DNA from: Cafeteria roenbergensis
Lineage: Eukaryota; Sar; Bigyra; Bicosoecida; Cafeteriaceae
NCBI GenBank assembly: GCA_008330645.1
Contig: VLTN01000099.1
Span: forward strand, 1-63,053
Length of the DNA: 63,053 nucleotides
Direction: 5' to 3'
In this document: positions 15,237 to 63,053 of the stretch, in pieces
How positions within the stretch are numbered: position 1 is the stretch's first letter
Layout: each line of letters starts with the position of its first letter
Program-made: the position numbers and the translations under genes
Notes under the pieces: model-generated
The model's input: only the letters and a program-made list of their open reading frames with translations
Told to the model about the DNA's origin: nothing
Database searches by the model: none

Positions 15237-15486
15237 AGGCTGTGGATGGGGCGCGGGAACGCTTGCATGTGTGCGCGCACCTTCCGCCTGCGTGACGAAC
15301 AAGGCCTTGCTTGCTGCCAACTCAAGTGACCCCTGGCGAGCGCACCGTGCCAACGCAAGCACTGTGGCGCGCGAAAAGCCCGAATGAATGGCGAGAATCC
15401 GCGCGAGACTGCCACGGAGCAGAGAGCGGCTGGAGCCCCGCCTGCCGTTGCGCTCGCGCACCGTCACGCAAGGACATGCAGCGAAA

Positions 15487-24387: not shown

Positions 24388-24418
<31 letters not shown>

Positions 24419-30308: not shown

Positions 30309-30798
30309 ACAAAGTGCGTGCTCGCCCCCTCGCTCCCCCACCCACTTGGAGTGGCGACGCAACAGCTGCCCGCAGGTGTCTGCTCGCCGAAGGCGCCGCC
30401 GGGCCGGGTGTTCGAGCACGCCGCCGCTTCGCGCCTCCTGGCAGTGGCCGATTGCCAGACCACCCACCACACACACCGTGTGCGCACACACAAGCCACTC
30501 GAGCGCGGAACACTGGAGGCCCGCGAATGAGCGGCGACACCGAAGCTCAAGGCCAGAGTTGCACCCCGGGCACGCAGGAGGCAAGCGCCGCGCGCGAGCA
30601 GCTGCTGCCAGTTTTGCCTTCGGGGGCGGGCTGCGCGGCCGCTGCGGCGCCCGGCCACGCGCGCGGGGTTGCCGGCGCTTCGTGGCGCCCGGCCACGCGC
30701 GCGGGGTTGCCGGCGCTTCGTGGCGCCCGGAGTGGCGCTGCTGCTGCAACACACACACACACACACACACACACGGGCACATGGCTACTGCCGACGAA
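30309..30798. other. Convergent intergenic with tandem and dinucleotide repeats
   Basis: A 490-bp stretch between facing 3' ends. It holds a 41-bp unit repeated about twice (30651-30735, GGTTGCCGGCGCTTCGTGGC core) and a (CA)n run at 30749-30773. No gene seen. Confidence 0.7.
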
Positions 30799-47851: not shown

Positions 47852-48636
47852 GCACTCGAGTCACAGACTCACCAATCACCAATCCAGCAACTCCATCACC
47901 GATGAATCACAAACCCCGCCAAACCCACAATCCCAAGTCTCAAATCCCAGATCCCTGCCATCACACTGCCTCGAGTCGCCACTCAGCCGCCCCTGCTCAC
48001 CGCATACGCTCCACCTGCTGTCGCAGGTACTGCGTCTGCCCGATCAGCTGGGTCGCCAGTCCCTTGGGGACGATATTGATTGAATGAACATCGTTGGGGG
48101 GGATCGAAAACTCGCGTAACCATGCCACGCACTCGATTCACAGACTCACCAATCACCAATCCAGCAACTCCATCACCGATGAATCACAAACCCCGCCAAA
48201 CCCACAATCCCAAGTCTCAAATCCCAGATCACTGCCATCACACTGCCTCGAGTCGCCACTCAGCCGCCCCTGCTCACCGCATGCGCTCCACCTGCTGTCG
48301 CAGGTACTGCGTCTGCCCGATCAGCTGGGTCGCCAGTCCCTTGGGGACGATATTGATTGAATGAACATCGTTGGGGGGGATCGAAAACTCGCGTAACCAT
48401 GCCACGCACTCGAGTCACAGACTCACCAATCACCAATCCAGCAACTCCATCACCGATGAATCACAAACCCCGCCAAACCCACAATCCCAAGTCTCAAGTC
48501 CAGATCACTCCCATCACACTGCCTCGAGTCGCCACTCAGCCGCCCCTGCTCACCGCATACGCTCCACCTGCTGTCGCAGGTACTGCGTCTGCCCGATCAG
48601 CTGGGTCGCCAGTCCCTTGGGGACGATATTGATTGA
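47806..48636 (-). repeat. Tandem array of three LINE 3' ends, about 277 bp each
   Basis: Units at about 47806-48083, 48084-48360 and 48361-48636, followed directly by long copy 2. Each unit holds the retrotransposon 3' tail, its 3' untranslated region and about 80 bp of the coding end, and each is cut at the same place (AGTCCCTTGG joined to GGACGATATTGATTG). A shared breakpoint shows that the array grew by tandem duplication of one truncated insertion rather than by repeated insertion. Confidence 0.85.
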
Positions 48637-50083
48637 ATGAACATCGTTGGGGGGGATCGAAAACTCGCGTAACCATGCCACGCACTCGAGTCACAGACTC
48701 ACCAATCACCAATCCAGCAACTCCATCACCGATGAGTCACAAACCCCGCCAAACCCACAATCCCAAGTCTCAAATCCCAGATCCCTGCCATCACACTGCC
48801 TCGAGTCGCCACTCAGCCGCCCCTGCTCACCGCATACGCTCCACCTGCTGTCGCAGGTACTGCGTCTGCCCGATCAGCTGGGTCGCCAGTCCCTTGGCGA
48901 TGACCTCGTTCAGCCTCGACAGCCAGCGGAAGGCCCAGCGCGCACGCTCCCTCGGCCGATCACCGAAGGCCGTGTCCGCCACCTTCTTGAGGAAGGCGAA
49001 GGCCGCCGGTCCCATGCGTCCCGTGGTCGTGATGACGAAGGGCACAATGGAGCTCATGTTGTCCTTTGTAGCTGAGCTCTTCTTGTACTCCCTCATCTTG
49101 TCATTCTCACGGCGCTCGAGAAAGGCGTCCATGCTCTGCAGGCCCTGCGTCACGTAGGACTTGCTCACCGCCGAGGTGATCTGCACGTCGACGAGACAGG
49201 TGGTCTCGAAGTCGACGTGCACCCGCAGGTCCGGTCGCTTGCGCGCGGCTTCGCTGGACCCCGGCTGGGATCCGAAGCGCGCCTGCCCGTCCTGCCAGCT
49301 GGAGGGCTCCACCACCGACTGCAGCCCCGCCGAGCGCACCGCCGCGTGCAGGACGTCGCGGACGTCGTTGTGCGCCCGGATGGTGGAGCCCTTGCCGCAG
49401 CGGCAGCGCGCCAGGTGGTGTGCCACACCGGAGACCCCGCCGATGTGGACGGTGCCCCTCGCGGTGGTGTCTCGCTGCATGCACGCACAGTTGATCGACA
49501 CGCCGTCCGGCACCACGTGGTCGGCCTCGGAGGCTCCGATGCGGTAGCGGGTGACCACCGCGAACTCCTCGTCCGTGAGCCCGCGGGGTCCCATCATCGT
49601 GTTGCGGAGCCAGTAGTGCGTTACCGGCACGCACGCCTCTCGGAACGCGACCAGGTCGCTCATGACGCGCAGCATGGCCGGGTCGTCGATGTTGGCGACA
49701 CGCTTCTCCGGCGTGCCCTTGGCCATCGCCTCGGCCCTGCAGCGTGCTGTGCAGGCCCTGCGCGCCTTGGCCAGACGGCGCAGGAAGACACACTCGTGCT
49801 TGATGCGCAGCATGTCGTCGTGGTGCAGCATCAACTTGCGCTGCCAGGGCGCCTCGGTCTGCTCGTTCGCCCGCGCCGTCACCCCGTCGCCGTACAGGCA
49901 CTTGCGGAGCTTGGCCTCCAGGTCGTCCGGCAACCTACCCAGGGTGTCGGGTAAGAAGCCCTCGAAACCAGTCGCTGCGGCCAGGCAGCGGGCTCCCTTG
50001 CAGGCCTTGACGAACTCCTCCACCAGGGTTGCCACTGCCTCCATGTCCACCGACGACTCGTCGTCAGATCTGAGCTCCATCAT
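48637..50083 (-). mobile_element. 5'-truncated non-LTR retrotransposon, copy 2, longer
   Basis: Same element as copy 1 but longer and with a continuous 418-codon frame (50083 to stop 48827). Besides the His/Cys cluster and the RPD ... D endonuclease-like motif it shows upstream sequence LVEEFVKACKGARCLAAATG and a basic-acidic helix pair (MLRIKHECVFLRRLAKARRACTARC fragments). The reverse transcriptase domain is still missing, so it cannot be autonomous. The intact frame suggests recent insertion or gene conversion. It ends on its 3' side in the tandem array of 3' ends. Confidence 0.65.
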
Positions 50084-50503: not shown

Positions 50504-52031
50504 ATGGCCACCCCTGCTATGGATGAAAGTGCAATGGCAAGCGCGCTCTGGGAGGCGGCCAAGGCCGGGAACACCTCCGAGGCCAGCAGGCTGCTCGATG
50601 CGGGCGCGCCGGTGACTTGGGAAAACAGCTTGGACGTGAGCTGCTGCACCATGGACCGCGTGGAACAACGCGCGAGGCAGCCCGGGGCGGGATGGCGATC
50701 AAACGGTGTCATAGCGTGCTGGGTACCACCGGCTGGCCAGCGGGAGGTGGCGCCGGTCGCATTCTGCAAGACGGCTGCGTTTTTGGCTGGCACTTGGCGT
50801 CGCAGGATGGCTTCACGGCGCTCATGAAGGCGGCACAAGGTGGCCACCCGGACACTGTGAAGGTGCTGCTGGACCGGGGCGCCGACCTGAAGGCTACGAA
50901 TGGGGTGAGCCGGGCGAGGCTGCTGCCTCCGGTGCGGACCGTGCGCGGGTGTCGCGGGCGGGCTGTCGACCGCGATGACGATGGGGGCGGTGTCATGGCG
51001 GGCTGGGTGGCGCTGGGAGGCTTGTGGGAGGTGTTGCCGGTGGCATGCCGCGAGGGCTGTGGTTGTTGAGGGCACGTGGCCTCGCAGGATGGGTCCACGG
51101 CGCTCATGAAGGCGGCACAAGGTGGCCACCCGGACACTGTGAAGGTGCTGCTGGACCGGGGCGCCGACCTGGAGGCCGTGGACTGGGTGAGTCGGGCGAG
51201 GCTGCTGCCTTCGGGGGCGGACCGAGCGCGGGCGTCACGGGCGGGCCGCGGTGGGGATGGGGGCGGTGTCATGGCGGGCTGGGCGGCGCTGGGAGGCTTG
51301 CGGGAGGTGTTGCCGGGGGCATGCCGCGAGGGCTGTGGTTGTTGAGGTCACGTGGCCTCGCAGGATGGGTCCACGGCGCTCATGAAGGCGGCACAAGGTG
51401 GCCACAAGGACACTGTGGAGGTGCTGCTGGACCGGGGCGCCGACCTGGAGGTCAAAAGCTGGGTGAGTCGGGCGAGGCTGCTGCCTCCGGTGCGGACCGA
51501 GCGCGGGCGTCACGGGCGGGCCGCGGTGGGGATGGGGGCGGTGTCATGGCGGGCTGGGCGGCGCTGGGAGGCTTGCGGGAGGTGTTGCCGGGGGCATGCC
51601 GCGAGGGCTGTGGTTGTTGAGGTCACGTGGCCACGCAGGATGGGTCGACGGCGTTGATCCTGGCGGCAGAACGTGGCCACAAGGACACTGTGGAGGTGCT
51701 GCTGGACCGGGGTGCCGACCTGGAGGCCAAGTGTAATGTGATTCATGTTTGCGGCTCCTCTCACCGAGCAGTTCAGCACGAGCGCCTCAAGCGGGTGAAA
51801 TCCTCCGTGGCCAACATGAGGCCATGGGGTAGCGGCATAAGCTCGTTGTTAGGGAACGAGCCGGATAGATTGGATACTGAGAGACTTCGAGCATGAGGAC
51901 GCAGCTCTGCATACGGGGAAACGGCTTCGCAGGCTGGCTGTACCGCTCTGATGGAGGCGGCAGCAGGTTGCCACAAGGACATGGTGAAGTGGTTGCTGGA
52001 AAAGGGGGCCAACTCGGAGGCACAAGCTCGC
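50504..52031 (+). CDS. Ankyrin-repeat gene, one repeat per exon, 3' end cut off by the viral element
   Basis: Exon 1 (50504-50635) encodes MATPAMDESAMASALWEAAK and the start of the first repeat. Exons 2-6 (50806-50904, 51088-51186, 51364-51462, 51639-51737, 51933-52031) are each exactly 99 bp, phase 0, and each encodes one 33-residue ankyrin repeat of the type DGSTALMKAAQGGHPDTVKV. Introns are 170-195 bp; introns 2-4 are nearly identical, so whole exon-intron units of about 277 bp were duplicated. Donors are GTGAGC/GTGAGT (exon 5: GTGATT), acceptors TCGCAG. After the donor of exon 6 the host sequence runs only about 40 bp before the AT-rich element starts at 52072, so the gene lacks its 3' part here. 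Protein-protein interaction role is likely; partner unknown. Confidence 0.75.
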
Positions 52032-52071
52032 GTGAGACCGGCAATGGCCCGGTTGGTGCTCAGAGCGCGCC

Positions 52072-52203
52072 CTGTTATAGTTTAATATATTTCTGGATAT
52101 GATGATATTTCAGCGCGGCCAAAAATGTGTGTATAGTACTATACACACATTTTTGGCCGCGCTGAAATATCATCATATCCAGAAATATATTAAACTATAA
52201 CAG
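52072..52203. repeat. Perfect 132-bp palindrome at the host/element junction
   Basis: Two 66-bp arms with no spacer, centre between 52137 and 52138 (GTATAGT/ACTATAC), without a single mismatch. The left border coincides with the change from host to AT-rich DNA. The central TATAGTACT is repeated at the start of each downstream terminal repeat. Confidence 0.95.
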
Positions 52204-52249
52204 TGATTTTTCTCTGAATATATTGAAAACAGTGAAATATATTTGCCAA

Positions 52250-52471
52250 AATATGTGTATAGTACTTATCGACGTCGATAAGTACCTATAAGTACCTGGG
52301 AAATTCTCAGCAAGCATTACGGGATAAAAATTATCCAATATCACCAAAAAAGTCAGCGGGTAAACAAAATGTATGTATAGTACTTATCGACGTCGATAAG
52401 TACCTGGGAAATTCTCAGCAAGCATTGCCTGCTAAAAATTATCCAATGTTGCCAAAAAAGTCAACGGGTAA
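52250..52471. repeat. Subterminal direct repeats, two copies, each with a 24-bp palindrome
   Basis: Copies at about 52250-52363 and 52368-52471 share TGTATAGTACTT, a perfect palindrome (GTACTTATCGAC then its complement; 52262-52285 and 52380-52403), GGGAAATTCTCAGCAAGCATT, AAAAATTATCCAAT and CCAAAAAAGTCA. Copy 1 has an extra TATAAGTACC after the palindrome. Likely part of the terminal inverted repeat of the element; the partner end is not in the window. Confidence 0.85.
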
Positions 52472-52518
52472 TTATCCCCCATGCTGTACAGCGATTTTTG
52501 CAATAATTGGTTGAAAGC

Positions 52519-52538
52519 CATGGGGTACCCCCCATGGG
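52519..52538. repeat. 20-bp hairpin CCATGGGG / CCCCATGG
   Basis: Perfect inverted repeat CCATGGGGTACCCCCCATGG within the AT-rich terminal region, near the 3' side of the first viral gene. Confidence 0.7.
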
Positions 52539-52597
52539 TTCAGTGCAATTTCGGGTATTATTACTCTGTGGGAGCATTTTGAGAATTAGTGGGTGGT

Positions 52598-52642
52598 GCC
52601 CGGCAATCCATTTTTCTCTATAGTAAAACTGGATTGCCGGGC
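52598..52642. terminator. Hairpin downstream of the first viral gene
   Basis: A 13-bp perfect stem (GCCCGGCAATCCA with TGGATTGCCGGGC) and a 19-base loop, 28 bp past the stop at 52670 of a minus-strand gene. Giant-virus transcripts are known to end at hairpins; a similar role is inferred. Confidence 0.5.
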
Positions 52643-52669
52643 AGGGGCTCTTATCATCTTGTACACATT

Positions 52670-53440
52670 TTAATCTTTATGCTTCCAAGACGGAACATAC
52701 ATGCCGTGTGCAGGCTCGTAATACAAAGCATAGAAGAAATTTTCGTCAAAGCGAGGGATATCTACACGTTCATTCTCCTCCAGTTCAAACAGGGCATCTA
52801 GCACCTCACGATGCGAAAAGGTCTCTCCAGGCTCCTTTTTCAACGTCTTCTTGTGATAGTAACCCAAAGACAAAATGTGGTACGGAAACGCTACTCTGTC
52901 CAGGTCTTCGTCAGTTACAATCAGCGCATTACCATCTCCTGAAATCTCAAAATCTGTGAAGGTCATGTCCCGAGTCAGAGCACCATCCTTTTCTCGACGT
53001 TTCAGGATAAATTCTTTCTCCATGTCAAAAACAACCTTGAATCTCATATGACTTAAGAGGTTGAATGGGGCTTTCATGGTGTTTCCATCTTCGGTTGTAA
53101 TGGAAATTGTTGATCGATTCTCAACACTCATCCGATAAAAATCACGAACTGTCGTGATAACCCGTAGATCGTCGACGCCGTGGGTATCCCAGTACCAAAT
53201 ACGAAGCAAATACAGGTCGTTATAACAATATTCTGTGCGAGGACGAGTAACAGGGCGTTCATCATCGTAAATGAAAACACCATCTGCCTTATGAATAATT
53301 CCAGCTTTGATGGCGCGCTCATACATATCATGAGTTACTGTAAAACTTGAAGGGAGCTCATAGCCAGGTGGTGTAACCCCCGAACGAATCTGATCACCCA
53401 TTTCTGTAACTCTTCCTGGGCGCCACTGAACCCACGACAT
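52670..53440 (-). CDS. Unknown virophage protein
   Basis: A 256-residue protein if started at 53440 (MSWVQWRPGRVTEMGD). This Met was preferred over the first codon of the frame because TATAGTAGAAGTACA immediately precedes it, like the leader of other genes in the element. The sequence is acidic and soluble, with no membrane segment: ELPSSFTVTHDMYERAIKAG, CYNDLYLLRIWYWDTHGVDD, MRFKVVFDMEKEFILKRREK, FTDFEISGDGNALIVTDEDL, and a Trp/Tyr-rich end. I do not recognise a family. It is the outermost gene at the left end of the element and reads towards the terminus. Confidence 0.7.
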   Translation of the reverse strand: MSWVQWRPGRVTEMGDQIRSGVTPPGYELPSSFTVTHDMYERAIKAGIIHKADGVFIYDDERPVTRPRTEYCYNDLYLLRIWYWDTHGVDDLRVITTVRDFYRMSVENRSTISITTEDGNTMKAPFNLLSHMRFKVVFDMEKEFILKRREKDGALTRDMTFTDFEISGDGNALIVTDEDLDRVAFPYHILSLGYYHKKTLKKEPGETFSHREVLDALFELEENERVDIPRFDENFFYALYYEPAHGMYVPSWKHKD

Positions 53441-53599
53441 TGTACTTCTACTATACTCATATATTAAAATACATAACGTTTTACAACTTGTCAAGGCATA
53501 AACAACCCCAAGGGGTTCAGGGAAATCTGGGGGTTCTTGTGTCCAAGATAATGGTAAGTGCTGCCAACTGTCTTTACATCATCACTGTTCTCTATTCCG

Positions 53600-53860
53600 T
53601 AATATGATTCATAATGAAAAACTATCCTATGTTATCTTCAGAGATAGTACAGGGTATATAAAGATTATGAGGGTGGACGAAAGGTGGACGAGGTGGACGA
53701 AGAAACCCAACATTTGCTCGGACAGAGGGGGGTGTTAGAACACCCTTATTTTCCAAACCAAAGTTGGGTTTTCTCGTCCACCTTCGTCCACCTCGTCCAC
53801 CCTCATAATCTTTATGTACACATCTGTTCTCATACTGAACCATAATATGATTCATAATGA
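53600..53860. repeat. Large imperfect inverted repeat flanked by 18-bp direct repeats
   Basis: Arms of about 52 bp (53660-53711 and 53764-53816), each with three GGTGGACGA units, differ by one small indel pair and a few bases. The loop is about 52 bp. An 18-bp direct repeat TAATATGATTCATAATGA flanks the structure at 53600-53617 and 53843-53860. It resembles a MITE-like insertion or a replication/regulatory hairpin. Confidence 0.8.
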
Positions 53861-53873
53861 GGATAATGCTTCA

Positions 53874-54392
53874 TCAGTGCAGTGTGCCCCCTGCACCGAA
53901 CACCTCTGTCTCAGCAGGCTTCTCCCTGATGCCAACGAAGACGTTGCATGTCTTCGTCTTCTTCTTTTGAAGCATCATGTCGGAGAGCACCTTTGACAGT
54001 TGGCGGTTCGTTGTGCGCCTGTCGCCGGTGTCAACACCATACGCGTCGTGTAGGTCTCTGATGCTGACACGATGGGCGTCATTACCGGTGATGTCGTACT
54101 TTGCAAGGAACCAGGTTTTGACGGGGTTGTTTTCTTCCTCAACGTCACGAGTCGCAGTCATGACTGAATCTGGCATGGCCACAGTGTAGCGCTTTGACAC
54201 CAGTTCCTGGTACTTCTCAGTAAGGAGAATGAACATCTCCTTCTTGTACTTGTCGTTGTCCGACAATCGGCGCTTTAGCGTAGGGTCTTTAGGCTTCTCA
54301 TGGGGAAGTGTGGGTTCGTCCACGAACTTGTAAGGGAAGGGAATGACCTTCATGCGGCGCTGAATGCCTCCGTCGGTGGGCAAAAGATACAA
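53874..54392 (-). pseudogene. C-terminal fragment of a D5-type primase-helicase (SF3)
   Basis: About 170 codons. The first recognisable residues TDGGIQRRMKVIPFPYKFVD match the segment that follows the SF3 helicase core in D5-like proteins of giant viruses, virophages and EMALEs. The helical C-terminal part follows (FILLTEKYQELVSKRY, ending near GAGGTLH). The helicase Walker motifs and the primase domain are missing. An in-frame TGA lies just upstream of the first codon, and no ATG with a viral-type leader precedes it. The remaining 5' part is not found between here and the ankyrin gene 80 bp away, so the gene was cut by a rearrangement. Expected loss of autonomous replication unless another polymerase or helicase lies beyond the window. 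Confidence 0.65.
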
Positions 54393-54432
54393 TTCAGCAA
54401 TTCACCATATGTAAGATAAATTGCTAATGCGG

Positions 54433-54470
54433 TTGCCGAGGAAATAACGTTTCCTCGGCAATGGTAGAAG
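54433..54470 (+). promoter_or_regulatory. Hairpin plus TAGAAG leader of the viral ankyrin gene
   Basis: A 12-bp perfect stem (TTGCCGAGGAAA with TTTCCTCGGCAA, 5-base loop, 54433-54461), then TGGTAGAAG directly before the ATG at 54471. The same hairpin-then-TAG layout precedes other genes of the element. Confidence 0.55.
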
Positions 54471-55058
54471 ATGGAAGTCAAAGATTACTTGCGTAAACAT
54501 ATTAAAGAAACACGCGATTGTGTTGGTTGGTATTTTGCACATGAACCTCCGCAAACTGATGAGCAAATTCTTGAGGTTGCTGATTCTCATGATGCATTTT
54601 TAATTGCTGGTTCTTTTGGTGACTTGGAATATTGCAAGTACTTGCTCTCGCTTGGCGACTTTGAAATTGATGAAATGAATAATGCTGATGTGGACATTTT
54701 GGACTATGTTGGAGATGACCAAATTCACGTATACAAATGGGCTGTGGAGTCTGGGGGATTTGATGATAGAGGATATCAATGGCTTTTTAAATACGCAATA
54801 CGTAAGGGAAATATTAAATGTGCGAAGTGGATAGTTGAGAGGTATGATGTTGACATTTACGCAAATCATGATGAAGCCCTAAGAGCATGCCATTCTCCAA
54901 AATCCCGGGAATGTGCAGAATGGCTTATTAAGAACGGAGCAGATATTCACACGAAGAATGATGAACTTTACAAAACCATAAAACATAGCATGGAGTGGGA
55001 TGACCGTGGAAGGTATGATGAACATTTCAAGTGGATTAGTTCTTTTGGTGGCCATTGA
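54471..55058 (+). CDS. Ankyrin-like repeat protein of giant-virus type
   Basis: A 195-residue protein with degenerate ankyrin-like units: HDAFLIAGSFGDLEYCKYLL, QWLFKYAIRKGNIKCAKWIV, DEALRACHSPKSRECAEWLI. The spacing and the xxGNIxCAKWIVE pattern are those of ankyrin proteins common in large DNA viruses of protists, and unlike the host-type repeats of the gene at 50504. AT-rich codon use also fits the viral segment. The start at 54471 follows a TAGAAG leader. It is the only clearly plus-strand gene in the left half of the element, between a helicase fragment and the integrase, so it may be a later acquisition. Possible role in host or viral protein interaction; unproven. Confidence 0.75.
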   Translation: MEVKDYLRKHIKETRDCVGWYFAHEPPQTDEQILEVADSHDAFLIAGSFGDLEYCKYLLSLGDFEIDEMNNADVDILDYVGDDQIHVYKWAVESGGFDDRGYQWLFKYAIRKGNIKCAKWIVERYDVDIYANHDEALRACHSPKSRECAEWLIKNGADIHTKNDELYKTIKHSMEWDDRGRYDEHFKWISSFGGH

Positions 55059-55177
55059 TGCGCTTGAGGAAGGACGTTTTTCCTGGACACAATAGTAGAG
55101 CATGTCATCAAGGTTTATTCTACAAAGGGATATGGAACCTGGTTACAAAGTGAAGACTTTTGGGTGGTCTGTGTGAA

Positions 55178-56338
55178 TCATCGCTTCTCAGCATCTTTCA
55201 GCATCTTGGGGACGTCGCGTTTCAGATTCTCGACGGGTTCCCATGTTGTTTCTCCAGTCGTCCATTTGACCATCCATCCTGGTTCTCCATCCCTTGATTG
55301 TTTCTTTAACAATCGGGAGATGTCCCACCGTGGCGCAGAGTCGCGGGTATTCTCCACACGTTCGACGAGTTGGAGGTCTTCTTCGTACTTGTTTCCAACC
55401 CAGTCAGGACGAGGTTGCCCACGCTTTGCTACATATGGCGCACCACTGAGTCTGTAGACCGTTGACCCGAATGGCGTCGATGGCCTGAGAATCTTTTCAA
55501 CACGATGAAGCGTCTTCGACCACTTCTCGCCGTCATTTGCAACTGCAGATTTGACGACCCGCACAGTATCTCCGACGCGGAAAGTGGGAGGTGTGGCCAA
55601 TGCTGTCGCGCGCTTCTTCGTCCTTGCAACAACTCCCTCACGCTTTCCATCTTCGAGTGCATGGGCTTCGTTGGGTGTCATGTCGATGGTAATCTGGTAG
55701 GAGTTGTTGTAGACGTCGACGAGTTCCTGGAGATAGGATGGCCAATCGCGCGTACCCTTTGCGCGCATGCTCTTCCGAATCATTTCCTTCAGAATACCGT
55801 TAAAGCGCTCTACTTGTCCGTTTGACTGTGGCTTCCCAGGTAACGAGAGAATTTGTTTCACGTTGTGCCGTTTTAGCACAGCCTTGAACTTTTGGTTAAT
55901 GAACTCCGTTCCCTTGTCACTGCGCACTGACCGAATGCCGTGAGCCTCAGACAAAAGGTTGTCCATTGCTTCCGCGACAGTGTCTGCTTTCTTGTTGAGC
56001 AGTGCGCGAGCATATCCTTTCTTCGAGAACAGGTCGATGCCCGTGAGGATGTACTGAATACCGTCCCAGCCAATAAGGCGGACATCTGCGAGGTCGATTC
56101 CCATGACTCGTTGAGGCGCTCGAACAATTGTACTCCGCACAACGCGAGGCCTCTTTGGTCGTAGATACATTTGATACGTTTCCTGTTTCCGGAGCCACTC
56201 TGTTACTTGGCGCTGTGAGACACCGAGACCCTCTTCGTTGGCCTTGCGCCATACCTTGTCTCTGCCAAATGTGAACCCGCGTGTATACCAGAGGTCATAC
56301 AGTCCGTCTTCTTGTGTTTTAGTCAGCGGTGGTACCAT
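55178..56338 (-). CDS. Retroviral-type (rve) DDE integrase with C-terminal chromodomain
   Basis: A 386-residue integrase of Maverick/mavirus type. An N-terminal helix-turn-helix-like part (about residues 5-60) is followed by the RNase H-fold core. Catalytic residues are visible as Asp82 (MGIDLADV), Asp141 (RSDKGTEF) and Glu177 (QSNGQVERFNG), a DD(35)E spacing. A C-terminal chromodomain (about 337-375) contains PRWDISRLL, MVKWTTGETTWEP and NLKRD. It would cut and join element ends into host DNA; the chromodomain may steer it to methylated histones. The ATG at 56338 follows TTTATAGAACACA. Frame and active site are intact, so integration competence is possible. The gene lies downstream of the capsid block on the same strand. 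Confidence 0.93.
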   Translation of the reverse strand: MVPPLTKTQEDGLYDLWYTRGFTFGRDKVWRKANEEGLGVSQRQVTEWLRKQETYQMYLRPKRPRVVRSTIVRAPQRVMGIDLADVRLIGWDGIQYILTGIDLFSKKGYARALLNKKADTVAEAMDNLLSEAHGIRSVRSDKGTEFINQKFKAVLKRHNVKQILSLPGKPQSNGQVERFNGILKEMIRKSMRAKGTRDWPSYLQELVDVYNNSYQITIDMTPNEAHALEDGKREGVVARTKKRATALATPPTFRVGDTVRVVKSAVANDGEKWSKTLHRVEKILRPSTPFGSTVYRLSGAPYVAKRGQPRPDWVGNKYEEDLQLVERVENTRDSAPRWDISRLLKKQSRDGEPGWMVKWTTGETTWEPVENLKRDVPKMLKDAEKR

Positions 56339-56348
56339 TGTGTTCTAT

Positions 56349-56502
56349 AAAGGGGCTCCGCCCCTTTTGAACCCCGTCCAAGGAAGTCCGAATATGCGTT
56401 TACACGTCTTTAATGTAAAGACTTGTGAACATTAATGAACCCTAAGACGGGGTTTTTAAAGGGGCGGAGCCCCTTTTTTGGTACGCTTTTGCGTCAAAAG
56501 CG
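56349..56502. promoter_or_regulatory. Composite hairpin module 1 (between integrase and major capsid genes)
   Basis: Two GC-rich hairpins in opposite orientation (56349-56367, AAAGGGGC-TCC-GCCCCTTT; 56458-56476, its reverse complement followed by T6) with GAACCCCGTC / GACGGGGTTT on their inner sides. A further hairpin CGCTTTTG-CGT-CAAAAGCG (56484-56502) touches the major capsid stop codon. A transcript-end or promoter role is inferred. Confidence 0.7.
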
Positions 56503-56503
56503 C

Positions 56504-58330
56504 CTAAGACGAAATCATGGCCATCAACTGCTTCTTGGTCAACTTTCCGAGACCCTTCTTCGATGGCTTCCCACCAGCAGTCCGCAGAACATCACCACCG
56601 GATACGTCTCCGTAGCCCATGCTCTTAGCAAATCCACCTGGCAGACTTGAATCACCAACGTAGGCTGAAGCGACAGGATGGTTGCGCGCCTGTCGGATTG
56701 CCTTCCTCACGCGTGGAGTCTTGAGCCAGGATGTGAAGGATGTCCATGCGTTTTGGATGGGTCGAGGAATAGACCAACCTCCCATAATGGCATTCATCTG
56801 AGAGGAATCGTCCGTAAAGACGAACTCTGAATCCAGGAGAGTTGCCGGAGAATAGCGAGGGCGCCACTCTGTGAATACATCACCCTCCTCGTACACAAAG
56901 ACGTCATAGAGGAGGAAGACCCGGAGATAGCAGACCTCATCCGTGGATGCACCCTTGACAGTGACACGGACAATTCCATCAATCGTTTCACCAGACCCGT
57001 TCATGATCTCGTCTGTGAGTCCGAGGTCAGAGGGGCGTACGTAGAAGATGGAACCGGCGCCGCGCTGCGTACTGCCAATTCCCGAGGGAATGCCTGCAAA
57101 CGTTGCCTCGCGCTTGGAGTACCCGTTTCCGGTGGAAATCTTGTATAGTTCCGTGGGGGTTACGCGGGCACCGAGAAGGTCAGTTTTGTTCCCGATGTCA
57201 ATGGACACGCTCTGAATCGGACAGAACCGATTAGGGAATGCCCACTCAGTACCAGGGATGTCAACACCAGCGTCCGTCTTGAGGAGGCGGGGACGCTCAA
57301 CGTAGATAGCAAGCATGTTCGGTACACCGGTCATCGTGAACGTCTTCGATTCCAGAGGAGGGCTGATTACATTCGCAGAGACGACATGGCGGTCGTTGCT
57401 GATACGCTGGATGCGCGGACTGCCCCATGCAAGAGACTCAGGAATCTCGAGGGCGGTGGACGGGTTCCACGAGCGGACAGTGAGAGTATGAACCGCAGAA
57501 ATACAGTCAACGACCAGACCCTTACCGAGAGCCGCAGCGCCGGCGGCAGGAACGATTTCCGGGTTGAGGTTTGCGCACCGCGCAGCAATGTCCCCAAGTT
57601 GGAGAGTAACCTTGACGGTGTTCAAATCCTTGAAGGGCTGCGCAAGGCGCGGGTTGTTGTACTGAAGAGGGTTGGCCATGAGAAGGTCGTTTACGAAGAA
57701 CCGGACACGAATCTGGTAGTCAGTGTCCGTTGCTACGTTAGGCACAATCTCATAGTTGTAGGCACCGCCGACACCCCGAGTCTTTCCGACGCTGGTAGAA
57801 CTTGCGCCTGCCTTGAGAGGATCATTGAGTACATTAGCGGCAAAGATATCGTAGTCATCTGTCTCAGGAGTGCTGGTTGCCATCGCAAGTTTCTCGTACG
57901 ACGTCGAGTTGAGGTGGATTTGTAGCATGTCGTGAACACGCGTGGTCGTGGAGAACTCGTTCAGTTGAACTTCAGCTACATCAATGCAGTTGTTTCCGGC
58001 TGCGGCCTGGAGCCCAATCTTGTCCTTGAACAGGGCAAGCATTGAAGCCCGCCTTGCAGCCCGGTCAGCACCAGCAACTACGCCCGCAGGGAACGTATAC
58101 CGAAGGACAAGATCCATGCCCTTCTCGAAGTTGGAATCGACCAGGCCGTCCGGGATTCGCGCATCGAATGACACAGTACCCTCGGTCACAGACCCAGCTT
58201 CGTTGGAAGAGATGCGGTTGTGGTTGATAGCGCGGTTTCCGAGCCGAGCACCAAACTGGGCGTTTTCGGGTGTCTGCCAGCGATAAGTCTCTGGAACGAG
58301 CATTTTCGTAGTTGGCATTACGGTTGGCAT
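56504..58330 (-). CDS. Major capsid protein (double jelly-roll), virophage type
   Basis: A 608-residue capsid protein placed last in the ATPase-protease-minor capsid-major capsid block. Its length fits mavirus MCP. Beta-rich sequence throughout with typical stretches such as VSFDARIPDGLVDSNFEKGM, DYQIRVRFFVNDLLMANPLQ, FPNRFCPIQSVSIDIGNKTD and EVCYLRVFLLYDVFVYEEGD. The C-terminal 40 or so residues are basic and flexible; LPGG (residues 563-566) followed by Phe fits the (M/I/L)xGG-x cleavage consensus of adenain-like proteases. The start at 58330 (MPTVMPTTKMLVPETYRWQT) was kept; a second Met five codons later is possible. Upstream is TATATTAGATATT. Capsid assignment rests on order, length and composition, since jelly-roll proteins are poorly conserved. 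Confidence 0.88.
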   Translation of the reverse strand: MPTVMPTTKMLVPETYRWQTPENAQFGARLGNRAINHNRISSNEAGSVTEGTVSFDARIPDGLVDSNFEKGMDLVLRYTFPAGVVAGADRAARRASMLALFKDKIGLQAAAGNNCIDVAEVQLNEFSTTTRVHDMLQIHLNSTSYEKLAMATSTPETDDYDIFAANVLNDPLKAGASSTSVGKTRGVGGAYNYEIVPNVATDTDYQIRVRFFVNDLLMANPLQYNNPRLAQPFKDLNTVKVTLQLGDIAARCANLNPEIVPAAGAAALGKGLVVDCISAVHTLTVRSWNPSTALEIPESLAWGSPRIQRISNDRHVVSANVISPPLESKTFTMTGVPNMLAIYVERPRLLKTDAGVDIPGTEWAFPNRFCPIQSVSIDIGNKTDLLGARVTPTELYKISTGNGYSKREATFAGIPSGIGSTQRGAGSIFYVRPSDLGLTDEIMNGSGETIDGIVRVTVKGASTDEVCYLRVFLLYDVFVYEEGDVFTEWRPRYSPATLLDSEFVFTDDSSQMNAIMGGWSIPRPIQNAWTSFTSWLKTPRVRKAIRQARNHPVASAYVGDSSLPGGFAKSMGYGDVSGGDVLRTAGGKPSKKGLGKLTKKQLMAMISS

Positions 58331-58476
58331 AATATCTAATATACGCTTTTAAAAAAAATAACCGCTTTCCGTGAATACTACATATTGCGCTGTCCAAGAT
58401 AACAGCCCATACATTTGTCCGTGTTTCTGTAACCTATAGGGAACGCTTACAAAACATTGTTTCGTCGGTTTTTGAT
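58331..58476. promoter_or_regulatory. Leader between minor and major capsid genes
   Basis: 146 bp. ATTTTTTTTAAAAGCGTATATTAGATATT lies directly upstream of the major capsid ATG on the minus strand (split here as A/T-run, then TATATTAGATATT). Probably holds the capsid promoter. Confidence 0.45.
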
Positions 58477-58497
58477 ACACTTTTTTCAAAAAAGTGT
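58477..58497. terminator. AT-rich hairpin containing the minor capsid stop codon
   Basis: ACACTTTTTT and AAAAAAGTGT form a 10-bp perfect stem with a single-base centre. The TGA of the minor capsid gene is at the tip (58486-58488). A transcript-end signal is inferred. Confidence 0.5.
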
Positions 58498-59388
58498 GTC
58501 CTTGAAAATCATGTAAATCTCCAGCGTGGCGTCTTCGACTGGAAGGTAAATCTGGTGGAAATTGCCCTTGTAGTCAATCCACCATGCTGAAATCGAGAAT
58601 GCCGACAGGTCAGATGTGGTCATGAGGTTGTGCCACCGAAGGAAACCTGGAGGAGTGAACAGAATTCCCTGAGTAGATTGAGATGACGACTGGGAGATAT
58701 TGTAATCCACAAGGAACCCTGTTTCTCGTCTGTTAATTTCCCCAGGGTCTTCCCCAGCCAGAGGCGGGATGAGTTCGGGAACCACAGGGAGCGATGTTGT
58801 TCGGAGCGCAGCGCGAGAAACTGGACTGAGCAACTCAATCGTAGACGTACCCTGAACCTCATCGTCCTCAGACAGAACCAGTTGGTACATGCGGTCTTCG
58901 TCCATGGTTGGGTGGAACCAGAAACTGTTAAGCGCCCACTTCATGCGCTCAGAGAATAGGAGTTCGTATCCTGCCCTGAAAGCACCAGTTGTTGTAAGAG
59001 TGAACTTGGCTGATGCAGGGTCATATGACATACTAGGAGCATCACACCCAACCGTAGACGCGAGAGATGCCATGGTCGTCGTGATGTGTGTTGCAAGCCA
59101 TCGAAGGTCATAAAGGTATTCATCAGTCCCGAAATTCACCGTCTCGACTACAGTGGAGCCACCCGTAGCCCGCATTCCAATTTTCCAGACTTTGTCGCAA
59201 CTGAACAGCGGGAGTGTCACTCCATGAAGATAGAACCGTTCGATTGCTACGCGATAAGCCTTGTCTTCGTTAAGAATCGGTGACGCACGATTTACGTATG
59301 CGACCGAAGGAACTTCACGACCAGCGCCACCCTTAGCCTCTGCGTGAACGAAGATTTGATGACCATGCTCTGACGTGTACTGTGCCAT
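58486..59388 (-). CDS. Minor capsid (penton) protein, virophage type
   Basis: A 300-residue protein started at 59388 (MAQYTSEHGHQIFVHAEAKG). This Met was chosen because TAGTAGTAGAAGC precedes it and because the length then matches mavirus minor capsid protein; the frame extends 51 codons further but overlaps the protease gene. Beta-rich, with SVAYVNRASPILNEDKAYRV, FYLHGVTLPLFSCDKVWKIG, ERMKWALNSFWFHPTMDEDR and a C-terminal WWIDYKGNFHQIYLPVEDAT. Single jelly-roll pentons occupy the vertices of such particles. Its gene starts 10 bp after the protease stop, so the two are probably co-expressed or tightly packed. Identification rests mainly on position and size. Confidence 0.8.
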   Translation of the reverse strand: MAQYTSEHGHQIFVHAEAKGGAGREVPSVAYVNRASPILNEDKAYRVAIERFYLHGVTLPLFSCDKVWKIGMRATGGSTVVETVNFGTDEYLYDLRWLATHITTTMASLASTVGCDAPSMSYDPASAKFTLTTTGAFRAGYELLFSERMKWALNSFWFHPTMDEDRMYQLVLSEDDEVQGTSTIELLSPVSRAALRTTSLPVVPELIPPLAGEDPGEINRRETGFLVDYNISQSSSQSTQGILFTPPGFLRWHNLMTTSDLSAFSISAWWIDYKGNFHQIYLPVEDATLEIYMIFKDTLF

Positions 59389-59398
59389 GCTTCTACTA

Positions 59399-59974
59399 CT
59401 ACTTCCAAATATGCGAAACCGTATCGTCCAGAGATGGAATTTTATAGTACCGGGATGCGAATCTGGCAAACTGAGCAAATTGCTCATTCGTGAGATTTTC
59501 CCACTGGCAACGCCAGAGGCTCCACCGCCCGCATGTAGCAACTCCTGGCTTTGACGACTGAAGCCGTGCCTCTGACCAGTCTGTTTCCCATCCGTATTTC
59601 AGGAAGAGGTCGATTAGACTGTTTCGTCCTTTCTCAGCCTGGTACAGCCTCGGGTCAGCGAACTCTTTTTGTGTCGTGTCAGGTAGTTTCCCGTAGGAAT
59701 CACAGAAATAGATGGTCTTTGATTCTGGGTCTCTCACAAGGGAAACGTAGTGTCCGGAGATATTTGACCCATTTTGAATTGCTGGGTAAAACAGAATAAT
59801 GGAATTCTGACTCCGTGGAAAGATATCGTCGAGGGATGAAGCCCGCATCACGTCGTCATACTCTACAACACGAGGCGCGGGGCGGTCTCGAGTCTTCGGG
59901 TTGCTTCTCCACATTGTCGTCAATTGTTCAGGGCTGAGTGCTTTGTAGGATATTGGATTTGTCGGTGGAGGCAT
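59399..59974 (-). CDS. Adenain-like (Ulp1 fold) cysteine protease
   Basis: A 191-residue maturation protease. Catalytic residues stand in the family order: His75 in SGHYVSL, Asp92 in FCDSYG, Cys148 in GVATCGRWSL. An N-terminal PxPxRVVEYDDVMRA region and a C-terminal helix (QFAQFARFASRYY) complete the adenovirus protease/Ulp1 fold. It should trim capsid proteins during particle maturation; a fitting site is present near the C-terminus of the major capsid protein. The start at 59974 is preceded by GGGTAGGA and lies only 2 bp after the ATPase stop. Length matches the mavirus protease. Confidence 0.93.
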   Translation of the reverse strand: MPPPTNPISYKALSPEQLTTMWRSNPKTRDRPAPRVVEYDDVMRASSLDDIFPRSQNSIILFYPAIQNGSNISGHYVSLVRDPESKTIYFCDSYGKLPDTTQKEFADPRLYQAEKGRNSLIDLFLKYGWETDWSEARLQSSKPGVATCGRWSLWRCQWENLTNEQFAQFARFASRYYKIPSLDDTVSHIWK

Positions 59975-59976
59975 TC

Positions 59977-60867
59977 CTACCCATCGAGAAATATTCCTTT
60001 TCTCTCAGAAAGAACCACGTCATTCTTTGCGTCAATGTAAATCCATCGTGAGGTTTGGAGCATGCGCTCAATGGGCGTGATTTCGCTCTTCTTCCATTTC
60101 ATGTACTCCGTGTAGAAGTAATGGCGTTCACGCTTCCGAGAGGCCGAGAACAGCACGAAATTAGTTGTCTCACCCATAATGAGTTTCGCACCGCGTCCAA
60201 AGTTCGTTGAATGGTTGCAAATGATGACACTTGCATTCCAATGACGACCCTTGGTTAGAAAGTGGTCACGGAGGAACGAGATGAGTTTAATGTCCGCGTT
60301 GTTCTCGTAATCGTCGAACAGGATAACTGAATCGTGGAAGAGTGTTGCCATCTCGTCTTCTGTGAACTTCAACTCCAACTTGTTCTTGCCCGCAATGGGT
60401 GGTGCTACAATGTTCTTCTGCATTTCGATTCGTTCTTCGGGACTCAATTCCTTCTTTACTTCCCGGAATACTGCCATCTTGTGCTTGTACTCTGCAAACT
60501 TCTCAAGATACGACGTACCAATTCCTACAAGGTCATCAATATCGAGGTATGTACATGGTTCAAACTTCTTGTCGGGGATATCCGTAATGACGAACACGCT
60601 TCGTTTTGCCTTGCGATACTGGCGAATGAGTTCGGCGCTGAAATACGACTTTCCGCTTCCAGATTGGCCTGAAAGATAGGTAACATCACGTTCACGCTCA
60701 CCAGTAATAGACAGCGGGATAGGCTGAAACGTCATTCCATTCACTGCCTCGACTGAGTTTTCCGCTGAACTTCGGTCTTTTCGGTCAAAAGTGAGAATTC
60801 CTTCAGATTTTCCACCTTTTGATACAATTGAAGCGAGTGAATCACCTTCTCCGTTAACTGCGAACAT
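59977..60867 (-). CDS. Genome-packaging ATPase, FtsK/HerA (A32-like) family
   Basis: A 296-residue ATPase if started at 60867 (MFAVNGEGDSLASIVSKGGK). This Met was chosen because GTGATAGG precedes it, whereas the longer frame starts inside a repeat module. Walker A is GQSGSGKS (residues 67-74) and Walker B VILFDDYEN (181-189, with DD as Mg2+ and catalytic acids). A conserved VIICNHSTNFGRGAKL segment may hold sensor residues, followed by RKRERHYFYTEYMKWKK. It would drive DNA into preformed capsids. First gene of the conserved virophage block; the protease gene starts 2 bp after its stop. Intact. Confidence 0.93.
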   Translation of the reverse strand: MFAVNGEGDSLASIVSKGGKSEGILTFDRKDRSSAENSVEAVNGMTFQPIPLSITGERERDVTYLSGQSGSGKSYFSAELIRQYRKAKRSVFVITDIPDKKFEPCTYLDIDDLVGIGTSYLEKFAEYKHKMAVFREVKKELSPEERIEMQKNIVAPPIAGKNKLELKFTEDEMATLFHDSVILFDDYENNADIKLISFLRDHFLTKGRHWNASVIICNHSTNFGRGAKLIMGETTNFVLFSASRKRERHYFYTEYMKWKKSEITPIERMLQTSRWIYIDAKNDVVLSERKGIFLDG

Positions 60868-60872
60868 CCTAT

Positions 60873-60891
60873 CACTTTTTATAAAAAAGTG
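60873..60891. promoter_or_regulatory. AT-rich hairpin at the ATPase start
   Basis: CACTTTTT-AT-AAAAAAGTG, five bases upstream of the ATPase ATG with GATAGG between. A nearly identical hairpin precedes the ATG at 61857. Confidence 0.6.
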
Positions 60892-60899
60892 TATCAAAA

Positions 60900-61094
60900 A
60901 AAGGGGCTCCGCCCCTTTTGAACCCCGTTTATGGACAATTGGGAATTTTAAGAACTTGTGTCGAAGGCATATCCATGGTCGGGGTTTTAAAGTGCCTACA
61001 CGTCCCAACATAACTTCATGGTCGGGGTTTTAAAGTGCCTACACGTCCCAACATAACTTCATGGTCGGGGTTTTTAAAGGGGCGGAGCCCCTTT
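60900..61094. promoter_or_regulatory. Composite hairpin module 2, with a 43-bp tandem duplication inside
   Basis: Inverted pair of GC hairpins (60900-60918 and 61076-61094) with the same inner GAACCCCGT / TCGGGGTTTTT sequences as modules 1 and 3. Between them a 43-bp unit (ATGGTCGGGGTTTTAAAGTG core) is repeated twice (about 60974-61060) before joining the right-hand hairpin, apparently by copying of the module's own end. Confidence 0.75.
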
Positions 61095-61857
61095 CGCGGA
61101 GAAAGGCAATAATCTTGGGTGCATGCTTCCAAAACGCAGTAAGGTTCTGGAGTCCACGCCCAGGCTCTTTCAGTTTGAGACGGATACGAACAAGTTCCCG
61201 CAAATTTCCGAGAGATGTCTGCAGTTCCTTCGTTGGAAAGAGCCCCTTCCCGCTCAAGAGTGTTTCTGCGCCGACGCGCGCAAGATACAGTTGGCCAACA
61301 TCTGGGCGGTCAAGAATGCGGTCAATGTACTTGCGCTGAATTGAGTCGGGGCGAAGAAGGAGTCGTTTCCGCTTCAGCACCTTGTAGCCAGTCCTCATCG
61401 TGTTCATACTCCACGATGTCAGCCCGGATTGATTCCTGGATTTCAGCGTCACTCAGTCTCTTCGTTGAGAAGTCGTAAGACGATGCTCAGTTCTTCCAGG
61501 TTTTCACCGGTGAATAGAGCATGTTGACTTTGACCCAGGACTTCGTCTCCGACTTTCTCCGAGCAATTCCTTTGCGGACTTGAGGCCGTCCCTGATAGAC
61601 TTAGTCCATAAAAGCGTCTCTCCCCGATTCTCACCTTTGTAATGACCATCTTACTTCGTAAGAATCCACGGACGAGTTGACGACTTCTGGAAGTCATCAT
61701 GTGACACTCTCGTATACAGGTCAATGTCCCCGCAAAAGGCGACGATGAGGCAAACGAACCGTTAAGGTACAGTGGGATGACCCTTCGATATCAACTTGTC
61801 GAAGATTTCAGCATGCTCAACATTGAAGGACAAGATACGATTTTCCGTCAACTCCAT
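61039..61857 (-). pseudogene. Frameshifted virophage gene upstream of the ATPase, unknown function
   Basis: Starts with ATG at 61857 (MELTENRILSFNVEHAEIFD) behind the standard hairpin-GATAGGT leader. The frame stops after 31 codons. Coding-like sequence continues in a second frame (about 61760-61449; VRIGERRFYGLSLSG, FTGENLEELSIVLRLLNEE), a third short acidic piece (about 61445-61360) and finally another frame (61380-61039; IQRKYIDRILDRPDVGQLYL). At least three shifts are needed to read it through. The end runs into module 2. No family recognised; its place next to the ATPase is where virophages carry a small conserved gene, but I cannot prove homology. Could also be two small genes plus sequencing errors. 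Confidence 0.5.
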
Positions 61858-61863
61858 ACCTAT

Positions 61864-62022
61864 CACTTTTTTAGAAAAAGTGTATCAAAAACCCCAAAGG
61901 GGCTCCGCCCCTTAAAAACCCCGTCCACGGACAATTAGGAATTCTTATGCAATCCATGGACGGGGTTTTTAAAGGGGTGGAGCCCCTTTTTTGGTACGCT
62001 TTTTTGTAAAAAAGCGTTATAG
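61864..62022. promoter_or_regulatory. Composite hairpin module 3 with start-site hairpins on both sides
   Basis: From left: AT hairpin CACTTTTT-TAG-AAAAAGTG (61864-61882), GC hairpin (61897-61913), inverted GC hairpin (61971-61990), AT hairpin ACGCTTTTTT-GT-AAAAAAGCGT (61996-62017), then TATAG and the ATG at 62023. It lies between two divergent gene starts, which argues against a pure terminator function. Confidence 0.7.
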
Positions 62023-62256
62023 ATGTCTAAAAGGACTGCAAAGGCTCTTCGCGAAACTCCTGCACTATGCGCCGGCAAGAGGAAGAAGAGTGGAACATTC
62101 CAGGCACGCGCACAGCGACTGGAGCAGGAGAAGCACTCCGAGAAGCGATTGAAACAGCGCAGGAAAACATGGAGACGTGCGATCGAACGAAGGACGGAAA
62201 TGCATTCGAAAGAGCGTGAGCCATGCCGCGAGCGTGCGATACATTCCCGCCACTGA
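62023..62256 (+). CDS. Short basic viral ORF, probably truncated by frameshift
   Basis: 77 codons, very rich in Lys and Arg (MSKRTAKALRETPALCAGKR start; KRLKQRRKTWRRAIERR middle). The ATG follows hairpin plus TATAG, the strongest leader of this type in the element. Composition suggests a DNA- or RNA-binding protein, but the other frames of 62090-62400 are also open in stretches, so the original gene may have been longer. No family recognised. Confidence 0.4.
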   Translation: MSKRTAKALRETPALCAGKRKKSGTFQARAQRLEQEKHSEKRLKQRRKTWRRAIERRTEMHSKEREPCRERAIHSRH

Positions 62257-62596
62257 GACCGCATTTCGACGTGCTAGGCGCGAGGCGCCTGCATTCTCTT
62301 GCAGAGCAGTTCCTCAAGCGCAGAGAGCGCGAAAGCAGAGTACGAACGAACACGCGGAACAACTTGCGCTTCCCCAAGATGCAATGAGGTGCTGAAGGAA
62401 GCAAGGGTCACGAAGAAGCTGAAGCGAGATTGTCAAACTTTTGGCCGAAACCGCATAAGCGCCAATCTGCGAGTTCATTCTGAAGAAGAATTCGGCTGGT
62501 CAGCTTGCAATTTGGCAAACAAAGACCCTCAATATGATTTTGGACCCACGTTGCTTTAAACCCCAAGTGAAGCACCGACAGAACCTATTGAGGGCA

Positions 62597-63053
62597 TGAT
62601 GAGTCAATACCCGACAGAGGAAAAGATCCCGCGCACAGGCTGAGGCAGAGGCACAGGCTCAAGCTGAGGCTGAAGCACAGGCTCAGGCTGAGGCCGAAGC
62701 TCAGGCACAGGCTCAGGCTCAGGCGCAGGCTAAGGCTCAGGCTAAACAAAAAGCAAAGGCTGAAGCAAAGGCTAAACGGGAAGCAAGGAAGAACACACCG
62801 GCAAACAAAAGAGCAACTGCTAATACTGACGCTGTACTCATGGCATCTTCTCCAGAACTTCAATCAATGCCGGCGGCGGCGGCGTCTTCAGGATATAGAG
62901 CACCTCGTCGTCGCCTTCGGTTTGGGGAAACTCCATCACCAGGATTGGGTGCAGTTGCAAAAGCTGAATTTGGAAGCCCAGAAGAAACCAAGGCAAGAGC
63001 ATCGTCGAAGCGTAAAGGCGCAAAATCGCTCATTTTAAAGGGTGAGACCGCTA
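62597..63053 (+). pseudogene. Frameshifted gene with Ala-Gln/Ala-Glu repeats, continues beyond window
   Basis: ATGATGAGTCAATACCCG (62597) opens a frame that stops at 62642. One base away, a second frame runs from about 62633 to the window end without a stop. It encodes about 30 dipeptides of the type AQ/AE/AK (a probable long helix or coiled coil), then KQKAKAEAKAKREARKN, a Ser/Ala-rich part (LMASSPELQSMPAAAASSGY), and a basic part (YRAPRRRLRF, ASSKRKGAKS). One frameshift, possibly a sequencing error in the repeat, separates start and body. Structural or DNA-binding function possible; no family recognised. Confidence 0.4.

Follow-up and report, generated by a model that had tools for sequence, protein, structure and literature searches.

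How a linear virus genome copies its very ends is the question raised by contig VLTN01000099.1 of Cafeteria roenbergensis (assembly GCA_008330645.1), analysed here over its full length of 63,053 nucleotides (the window). From position 52,072 to the contig end, the window is an integrated mavirus-like virophage, a mid-GC member of the endogenous mavirus-like elements (EMALEs) of Cafeteria. Mid-GC EMALEs lack the mavirus-type protein-primed polymerase; if each cycle renewed a palindromic end, this would explain how their ends are copied. The outer tip of the window's terminal repeat, 132 bases at 52,072-52,203 that abut host DNA, proved to be a perfect palindrome, and we consider it likely that hairpin fold-back, not protein priming, is how mid-GC EMALEs replicate their ends. 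Throughout, C-numbers designate the contigs of the 36.3-Mb, 167-contig Cafeteria genome, in which the window is C99.

When the left 3.2 kb of the element was used as a DNA query, the same repeat turned up at many places in the genome, its outer part matching both strands. In all, 29 mid-GC ends were read: 20 were fetched, 7 came from the window and longer stretches, and 2 from distant elements on C149 and C5, which bear a tyrosine recombinase (YR; 42% and 36% identical). Both outer motifs were present in 28 of the 29 ends. Within these copies the two arms were identical in 23 of 28 cases and 94.0-97.1% alike in four more, which gives at least 94% in 27 of 28; the 23 perfect palindromes measured 90-138 bp. 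Moreover, the ends on C149 and C5 are perfect palindromes of 90 and 92 bp whose sequence is largely unrelated to that of the window: identity to the arms of the window is 47% and 52%, and the parts in common are the outer TGTYATAGT and a TATAGT-like centre. The paired motif also occurs at the spacing of C149 on C35 and C137, by motif match alone. A genome-wide scan with the end motif gave 29 forward and 27 reverse matches, made up of 26 facing pairs within 138 bp and four unpaired matches (C31:100,971, C34:8,067, C110:20,744 and C29:7,191), and the reversed pattern, used as a genome-wide control, gave 0 matches.

Both ends were checked in four elements, three of which (C1, C23 and C58) have TG...CA ends and 5-bp target duplications; the one on C1 (229,814-248,770) is a complete sister copy of the window's element, with terminal inverted repeats (TIRs) of 833 bp that are 99.2% alike. 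Because the 5-bp duplications lie outside the TG...CA ends, the inserted molecule carried the whole palindrome in these three cases. In the fourth element, C29, inverted host flanks stand in place of a target duplication, and such mutually inverted flanks may be an artefact of fold-back reads. That all the palindromes are assembly or sequencing artefacts of this kind is nevertheless scarcely credible, since they stand at 28 of 29 ends, in different places and host flanks, and at 0 of 16 ends of another class in the same assembly, and true target duplications lie outside the palindromes in C1, C23 and C58.

The two arms of one palindrome tend to change together. Among 13 left arms compared between copies, identity ranges over 45.7-98.5%, and the agreement of arms within a copy exceeds that between copies, with two exceptions. 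A common substitution is found on both arms in C86 and C48, and an extra base on both arms in C29, C86 and C48; several matched changes stand alongside one-sided ones in C110 and C76. In C58-left and C23 (18.8k) the interior is rearranged and the palindrome still perfect, and in C4 matched inner parts are missing from both arms. In a covariation count on a 10-row alignment (8 distinct rows, one length class, indel columns left out), two-sided change was seen in 6 pairs; shuffles gave 2.0 +/- 1.1, and 0 of 500 reached 6; paired cells dropped from 98.8% to 31-50% when the partner was slid. An earlier column count (C110, 4 matched and 5 one-sided; C76, 3 and 6) was replaced by the arm comparison, as it had missed paired indels in gap columns. 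A terminal palindrome with arms that change together, as expected of a hairpin telomere, was thus found in the mid-GC ends, with C108 and C34 as exceptions.

Matched arms would also be expected if gene conversion between the arms took place in the host genome after insertion. One-sided differences nevertheless persist in C29-left, C76 and C110, which suggests that the arms drift apart after integration and that decay is not evened out; together with the 5-bp duplications round host-flanked palindromes, which show these to have been whole at insertion, this makes host gene conversion an explanation of very low probability. Hardly more probable, in our view, is that the symmetry is kept by selection as a paired binding site of the integrase or the YR rather than by hairpin copying. 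The outer TGTYATAGT and the TATAGT-like centre are indeed the parts common to unrelated palindromes, and the central motif recurs in the TIR, but the symmetry spans the whole 90-138 bp, freely changing stretches included, and extends to matched indels and rearrangements.

Extra copies of the central motif, with a 24-bp palindrome, occur in the TIR twice each in the window and C94, fewer times in C1-left and C29-right, and not at all in C149 and C5; because they are absent from the last two, these repeats are not a general part of the ends. The TIR motif copies and the 24-bp palindromes could be initiator or recombinase sites. In the C58 element (11,506-30,457), the palindromes differ between the two ends (134 and 89 bp), and the shorter resembles the longer minus its inner stem; its centre is asymmetric over 3 nt, which is what a flip/flop loop would give.

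The other class of ends belongs to elements with a putative protein-primed PolB (pPolB), and here no palindromic end was found among 16 (C69, C8, C100 and C2, two each; C94, C115, C103, C114, C140, C130, C144 and C4, one each). The longest perfect arm was 4 in ten re-measured ends of this class versus 25-66 in the mid-GC ends compared. A run of 7-10 A opens fourteen of the 16, and in the two of C2 a short GC stretch is followed by a C-run; 14 of the 16 lie on contigs that match the putative pPolB, and no such match was found on C1, C29, C58, C23, C88, C149 or C5. The name pPolB rests on the position beside the rve integrase and the primase/helicase, as in published low-GC elements, and on the frames of relatives in the genome (547-632 aa). 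The Pfam profile DNA_pol_B_2 found nothing in the genome, a search in which its control matched nowhere either.

Rolling-hairpin replication is established for parvoviruses, in which a folded-back end lets one arm serve as template for the other, and the rewriting of arms by fold-back replication is known at the ends of adeno-associated virus (AAV), parvoviruses and poxviruses. The terminal repeats of AAV and parvoviruses likewise have a full palindrome at the tip, then a further terminal repeat, and arms that are copied mutually. In contrast to these viruses, the present elements are virophages with a double-jelly-roll capsid, an integrase and a primase/helicase, and an HUH-type Rep was not recognised among the sister's searched genes. 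We propose that the free linear genome of mid-GC EMALEs would end in hairpins or extended palindromes, and that replication would run round the folded end, one arm being rewritten from the other in each cycle. Hairpin copying would then take the role that protein priming has in low-GC EMALEs and mavirus, and a nick at the edge of the palindrome would restore the extended end, which the rve integrase would insert.

The genes that might serve this cycle are best seen in the sister on C1, which has 15 open reading frames (ORFs) of at least 100 aa. They encode an HNH-like protein (PHROG, 1.2e-5), the integrase, the major capsid protein (MCP), the minor capsid (penton) protein (PEN), the protease (PRO), the packaging ATPase, MV14, a repeat-rich protein, a P-loop protein, an S74 fibre-like protein, the YR, a 1073-aa protein, an ankyrin-like protein and two proteins of unassigned kind. 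The 1073-aa protein has PriCT_2 and Herpes_ori_bp domains, that is, a primase fused to a helicase of the origin-binding-protein type. The preliminary description of the window expected a polymerase to the right of the contig end; it is probably absent, as the sister has this primase/helicase fusion and no match to the putative pPolB. A giant-virus enzyme would be the natural guess for the polymerase, and the candidates for a nicking or resolving enzyme would be three of the element's own proteins (YR, HNH-like protein and integrase) and an enzyme supplied by the helper giant virus.

The YR is present in ten palindrome-ended elements (C1, C88, C86, C29, C58, C23, C34, C149, C5 and C137). In its structural model (mean pLDDT 70.5, residues 1-81 unreliable), the best fold matches are XerA, the Tn1549 integrase and Cre, all of the tyrosine-recombinase fold, and the modelled enzyme could in principle cut sites such as those in the TIR. 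One version of hairpin fold-back would give the YR the part of a telomere resolvase, which cuts the centre of the replicated palindromic junction and closes each side into a hairpin. Palindromes are the sites on which telomere resolvases act, and in a phaeovirus provirus a gene of this kind goes together with fold-back reads (PMC13236599). We regard this version as rather unlikely: a closed hairpin represents one arm, while the integrated copies have both, and an extra opening step would be needed. No telomere resolvase was among the fold matches listed, which excludes nothing.

Several observations weigh against hairpin copying of the ends. All the evidence is the sequence of integrated copies, and the window's own YR and primase are taken from the sister, the right end of the window's element being off the contig. 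Of the 23 perfect cases, fifteen repeat a single palindrome, for which reason the independent sample is 13 distinct ends, 8 of them with identical arms. C34 lacks the outer arm; the arms of C108 are 80.4% alike, no better than their match to C58-right (80.0%); those of C29-left, at 97.1%, are no closer than the match to C29-right (98.5%); and C58-right has a 3-nt asymmetric centre. In the covariation count, one of the five measures, further pair types, was not above shuffles (127/500), and related sequences can exceed shuffles without structure. On the side of the contrast class, the ends of C103 and C144 were placed there from end sequence alone, and the putative pPolB has no Pfam match; moreover, the palindrome and the replication module travel together, so that the contrast with pPolB may be one evolutionary switch. 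Finally, no HUH-type nickase was recognised among the 9 of 15 sister ORFs given to Pfam.

The elements themselves are of a known kind, and it is their terminus, a perfect palindrome of 130 bp in the window, that seems unreported. In four C. burkhardae genomes (34-36 Mb, about 70% GC), PMC8547959 identified 138 endogenous mavirus-like elements, among which the mid-GC types 5-8 (GC about 47-53%) have no pPolB and possess a tyrosine recombinase and a longer primase/helicase; types 4-7 share the gene order MV14-ATPase-PRO-PEN-MCP. The present elements agree with types 5-8 in host, in GC near 50%, in this order (types 4-7) and in an rve integrase near the 3' end, and the sister on C1 also in the YR, the long primase/helicase, the absence of pPolB and the TIRs (PMC8547959). 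Terminal palindromes whose arms change together are not in the main text of that paper. With mavirus and EMALE type 4 they share homologous MCP and PEN and the same morphogenesis order, but type 4 belongs to the pPolB class, whose ends here start with A- or C-runs and are not palindromic, none of these ends being assigned to type 4 itself.

Outside the virophages, terminal hairpins are described for two giant viruses of a cryptomonad (Tyrannovirus, PMC12747079), and the phaeovirus provirus EVEc has both a telomere-resolvase gene and reads that fold back at a palindrome (PMC13236599). Like the proposed free form of mid-GC EMALEs, these are linear dsDNA genomes with hairpin or palindromic ends, in a phylum that virophages parasitise; they differ in being much larger, and the likeness is one of description, not of sequence. 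In the Bidnaviridae (PMC4061559), one replication scheme likewise occupies the place of another within a lineage; there a protein-primed PolB is found where the endonuclease would be, whereas here palindromic ends are found where pPolB is missing. The word stems 'palindrom' and 'hairpin' have 0 occurrences in the main texts of PMC8547959, PMC10945749, PMC10120064, PMC9952930 and PMC12220804, and the sole 'hairpin' of PMC6723459 is a polyadenylation signal. Literature searches combining virophage or polinton with hairpin, palindrome or telomere resolvase gave no virophage case among the titles listed, subscription papers being mostly outside this coverage, and no published account of how mid-GC EMALEs copy their linear ends was found in the main texts and titles covered.

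If hairpin fold-back is correct, these would be the first hairpin-ended virophages in the literature covered, replication strategy would differ inside one virus genus, and fold-back reads at the palindrome centre would be a simple test of activity. We tentatively extend this to a scheme that we hold to be possible rather than probable, in which one virophage genus has two systems of end replication: a protein-primed one, with pPolB and homopolymer ends, and a hairpin-telomere one, with the YR, the origin-binding primase/helicase and palindromic ends. The hairpin class would borrow or match the hairpin-end machinery of its helper giant virus, and the type of end would then predict which giant viruses wake an element.

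The window's copy was described beforehand as a candidate inducible antiviral element, a claim that finds no support for its type. In particles induced by the giant virus CroV, 99.4% and 99.9% of reads mapped to EMALE type 4 and other types made up <0.05% (PMC10945749), and the window's element lies outside the pPolB class, to which type 4 belongs. Wakening by a CroV-like giant virus with protection of the host population, which is true for type 4 EMALEs (PMC10945749), is improbable here: other types stayed below that share of reads after CroV, and the window's copy has an interrupted MV14 and a broken neighbouring gene. The palindromic ends suggest, as a conjecture, that a giant virus with hairpin ends, and not CroV, may help the types that CroV leaves asleep.

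The features of the element in the window are as follows.

52,072-52,203: terminal perfect palindrome, arms of 66 nt with zero spacer; the element proper starts at TG, 52,073
52,073-52,672: left TIR, to the extent matched in most other copies (833 bp in the sister on C1)
52,262-52,285 and 52,380-52,403: two 24-bp palindromes, with a copy of the terminal palindrome's central motif before each
52,670-53,494, minus strand: ORF of 274 aa, function unassigned
53,874-54,392, minus strand: D5-type primase/helicase, C-terminal fragment (PHROG primases, 1.7e-9)
54,471-55,058, plus strand: ankyrin-repeat protein (Pfam)
55,178-56,338, minus strand: rve integrase, DD(35)E, with chromodomain-like tail (Pfam, conserved residues)
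56,504-58,330, minus strand: MCP (mavirus match)
58,486-59,541, minus strand: PEN (mavirus match)
59,399-59,974, minus strand: cysteine protease with H75, D92 and C148 (conserved residues)
59,977-60,867, minus strand: packaging ATPase (PHROG, motifs)
61,039-61,724, minus strand: MV14 homologue, frame interrupted
62,027-63,053, plus strand: homologue of the sister's 323-aa gene, without intact frame, cut by the contig end

The preliminary description had named a mavirus-like virophage with five intact genes (integrase, ATPase, protease, minor and major capsid) in DNA poorer in GC than the host, and most of this holds. The five genes are open, on one strand (minus) and in the order given. GC per kb is 58-79% up to 52 kb and 42-55% beyond, the adjoining 3 kb of host DNA having 65-68%. 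In a search of solved structures, which leaves Maverick and polinton-like virus capsids outside the comparison, the best match of MCP was the mavirus MCP 6g45 (5.3e-40) and that of PEN the mavirus penton 6g41 (5.7e-33); MCP also matched a second mavirus entry, and non-mavirus chains at E<=1 numbered two for MCP and one for PEN, all with E above 0.5. The label is therefore borne out by the only strong capsid matches and by a gene order as in mavirus and EMALE types 4-7 (PMC8547959). In the ATPase, the motifs GQSGSGKS and FDDYEN are both present.

Other parts of that description stand only partially. For the integrase, the DD(35)E is confirmed (Pfam rve, 3.8e-12; D102, D141 and E177 invariant in four copies, with 35 residues between the last two), while the chromodomain scored in a 66%-identical relative (Pfam, 3.5e-7) and not in the window's own copy. 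Four diverged copies of the protease all keep H75, D92 and C148; 'adenain-like' was not upheld, since Pfam, PHROG and PDB gave no match and the query against solved structures returned nothing useful. Intactness applies to the five genes and not to the MV14 homologue, split into frames of 137 and 91 aa (272 aa in the sister on C1), nor to the neighbouring plus-strand gene, where the window has no open plus-strand frame of at least 90 aa at the position of the sister's 323-aa gene. PMC8547959 warns that interrupted genes of this kind can stem from assembly errors.

The GC of 42-55% per kb and the integrase past MCP towards the left end place the element among the mid-GC EMALEs (types 5-8), and it has neither the GC of about 30-38% nor the pPolB-class ends of types 1-4. 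The mavirus-like morphogenesis module (ATPase, PRO, PEN, MCP) is present with MV14, the latter in its interrupted frame. The type is probably 5 or 6, because methylase and ribonucleotide reductase, the marks of type 7, were not seen in the 9 of 15 sister ORFs searched with Pfam. The left TIR and host flank lie within the window and the right end beyond the contig; the sister has both ends.

A search of the genome with MCP gave 38 matches. They include ten places at 99-100% identity (in two of these the main match starts after residue 17) and 18 diverged places at 25-35%, while C23 and C48 carry decayed pieces. In protein databases, MCP had 5 relatives, the 3 named ones all being hypothetical proteins of Cafeteria roenbergensis at 80-91% identity, and YR had 6. 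The MCP query found no relatives in a viral contig collection, nor did alignments of YR, of MCP and of ATPase (the last with two sequences), and a phage collection gave no MCP match. A 20-mer from the terminus matched 2 viral contigs by chance, as their genes are unrelated and perfect palindromes with arms of at least 12 are absent from them.

The left 3 kb of the element (52,670-55,058) is a mosaic with a lower GC of 42-44%. Its first part, TIR and 274-aa ORF, is common to C88, C111, C161, C108 and C31; the second, the D5-type primase fragment, to C144, C35 and C151; the family's usual sequence follows from about 54,377. A perfect 43-bp tandem duplication (60,974-61,059) lies shortly upstream of the ATPase start, which is most likely at 60,867; a longer frame starts inside this duplication. 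Intergenic hairpins of the kinds AAAGGGGCTCCGCCCCTTT and CACTTTTT..AAAAAGTG are repeated at 56,349-56,499, 58,467-58,505, 60,868-60,947, 61,060-61,094 and 61,859-62,019, and are possibly transcript ends or promoter parts.

Further observations concern the surroundings of these elements. The host flanks on either side of C29 are inverted copies of >2 kb near the contig end (97.7%, zero mismatches, 58 gap positions); they are either a fold-back made in assembly or an inverted duplication that is real. In C4 (949,293-949,681) and C144 (11,251-11,674), the inner side of a mid-GC terminal repeat adjoins a low-GC end, an arrangement that insertion of one virophage into the end of another would give. 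Three ORFs (635, 678 and 401 aa) with identical first 50 residues lie in GC-rich inserts of a low-GC element on C69 (145,468-150,792) and of the mid-GC element on C29, and fit published Ngaro retrotransposon insertions by size and place alone. Finally, the insertion in the window adjoins host tandem repeats (48,000-48,903 and 50,770-52,042) whose period is about 276-294 bp; the nearer array is readable as ankyrin-like repeats, so that a host repeat gene may be the site of insertion.

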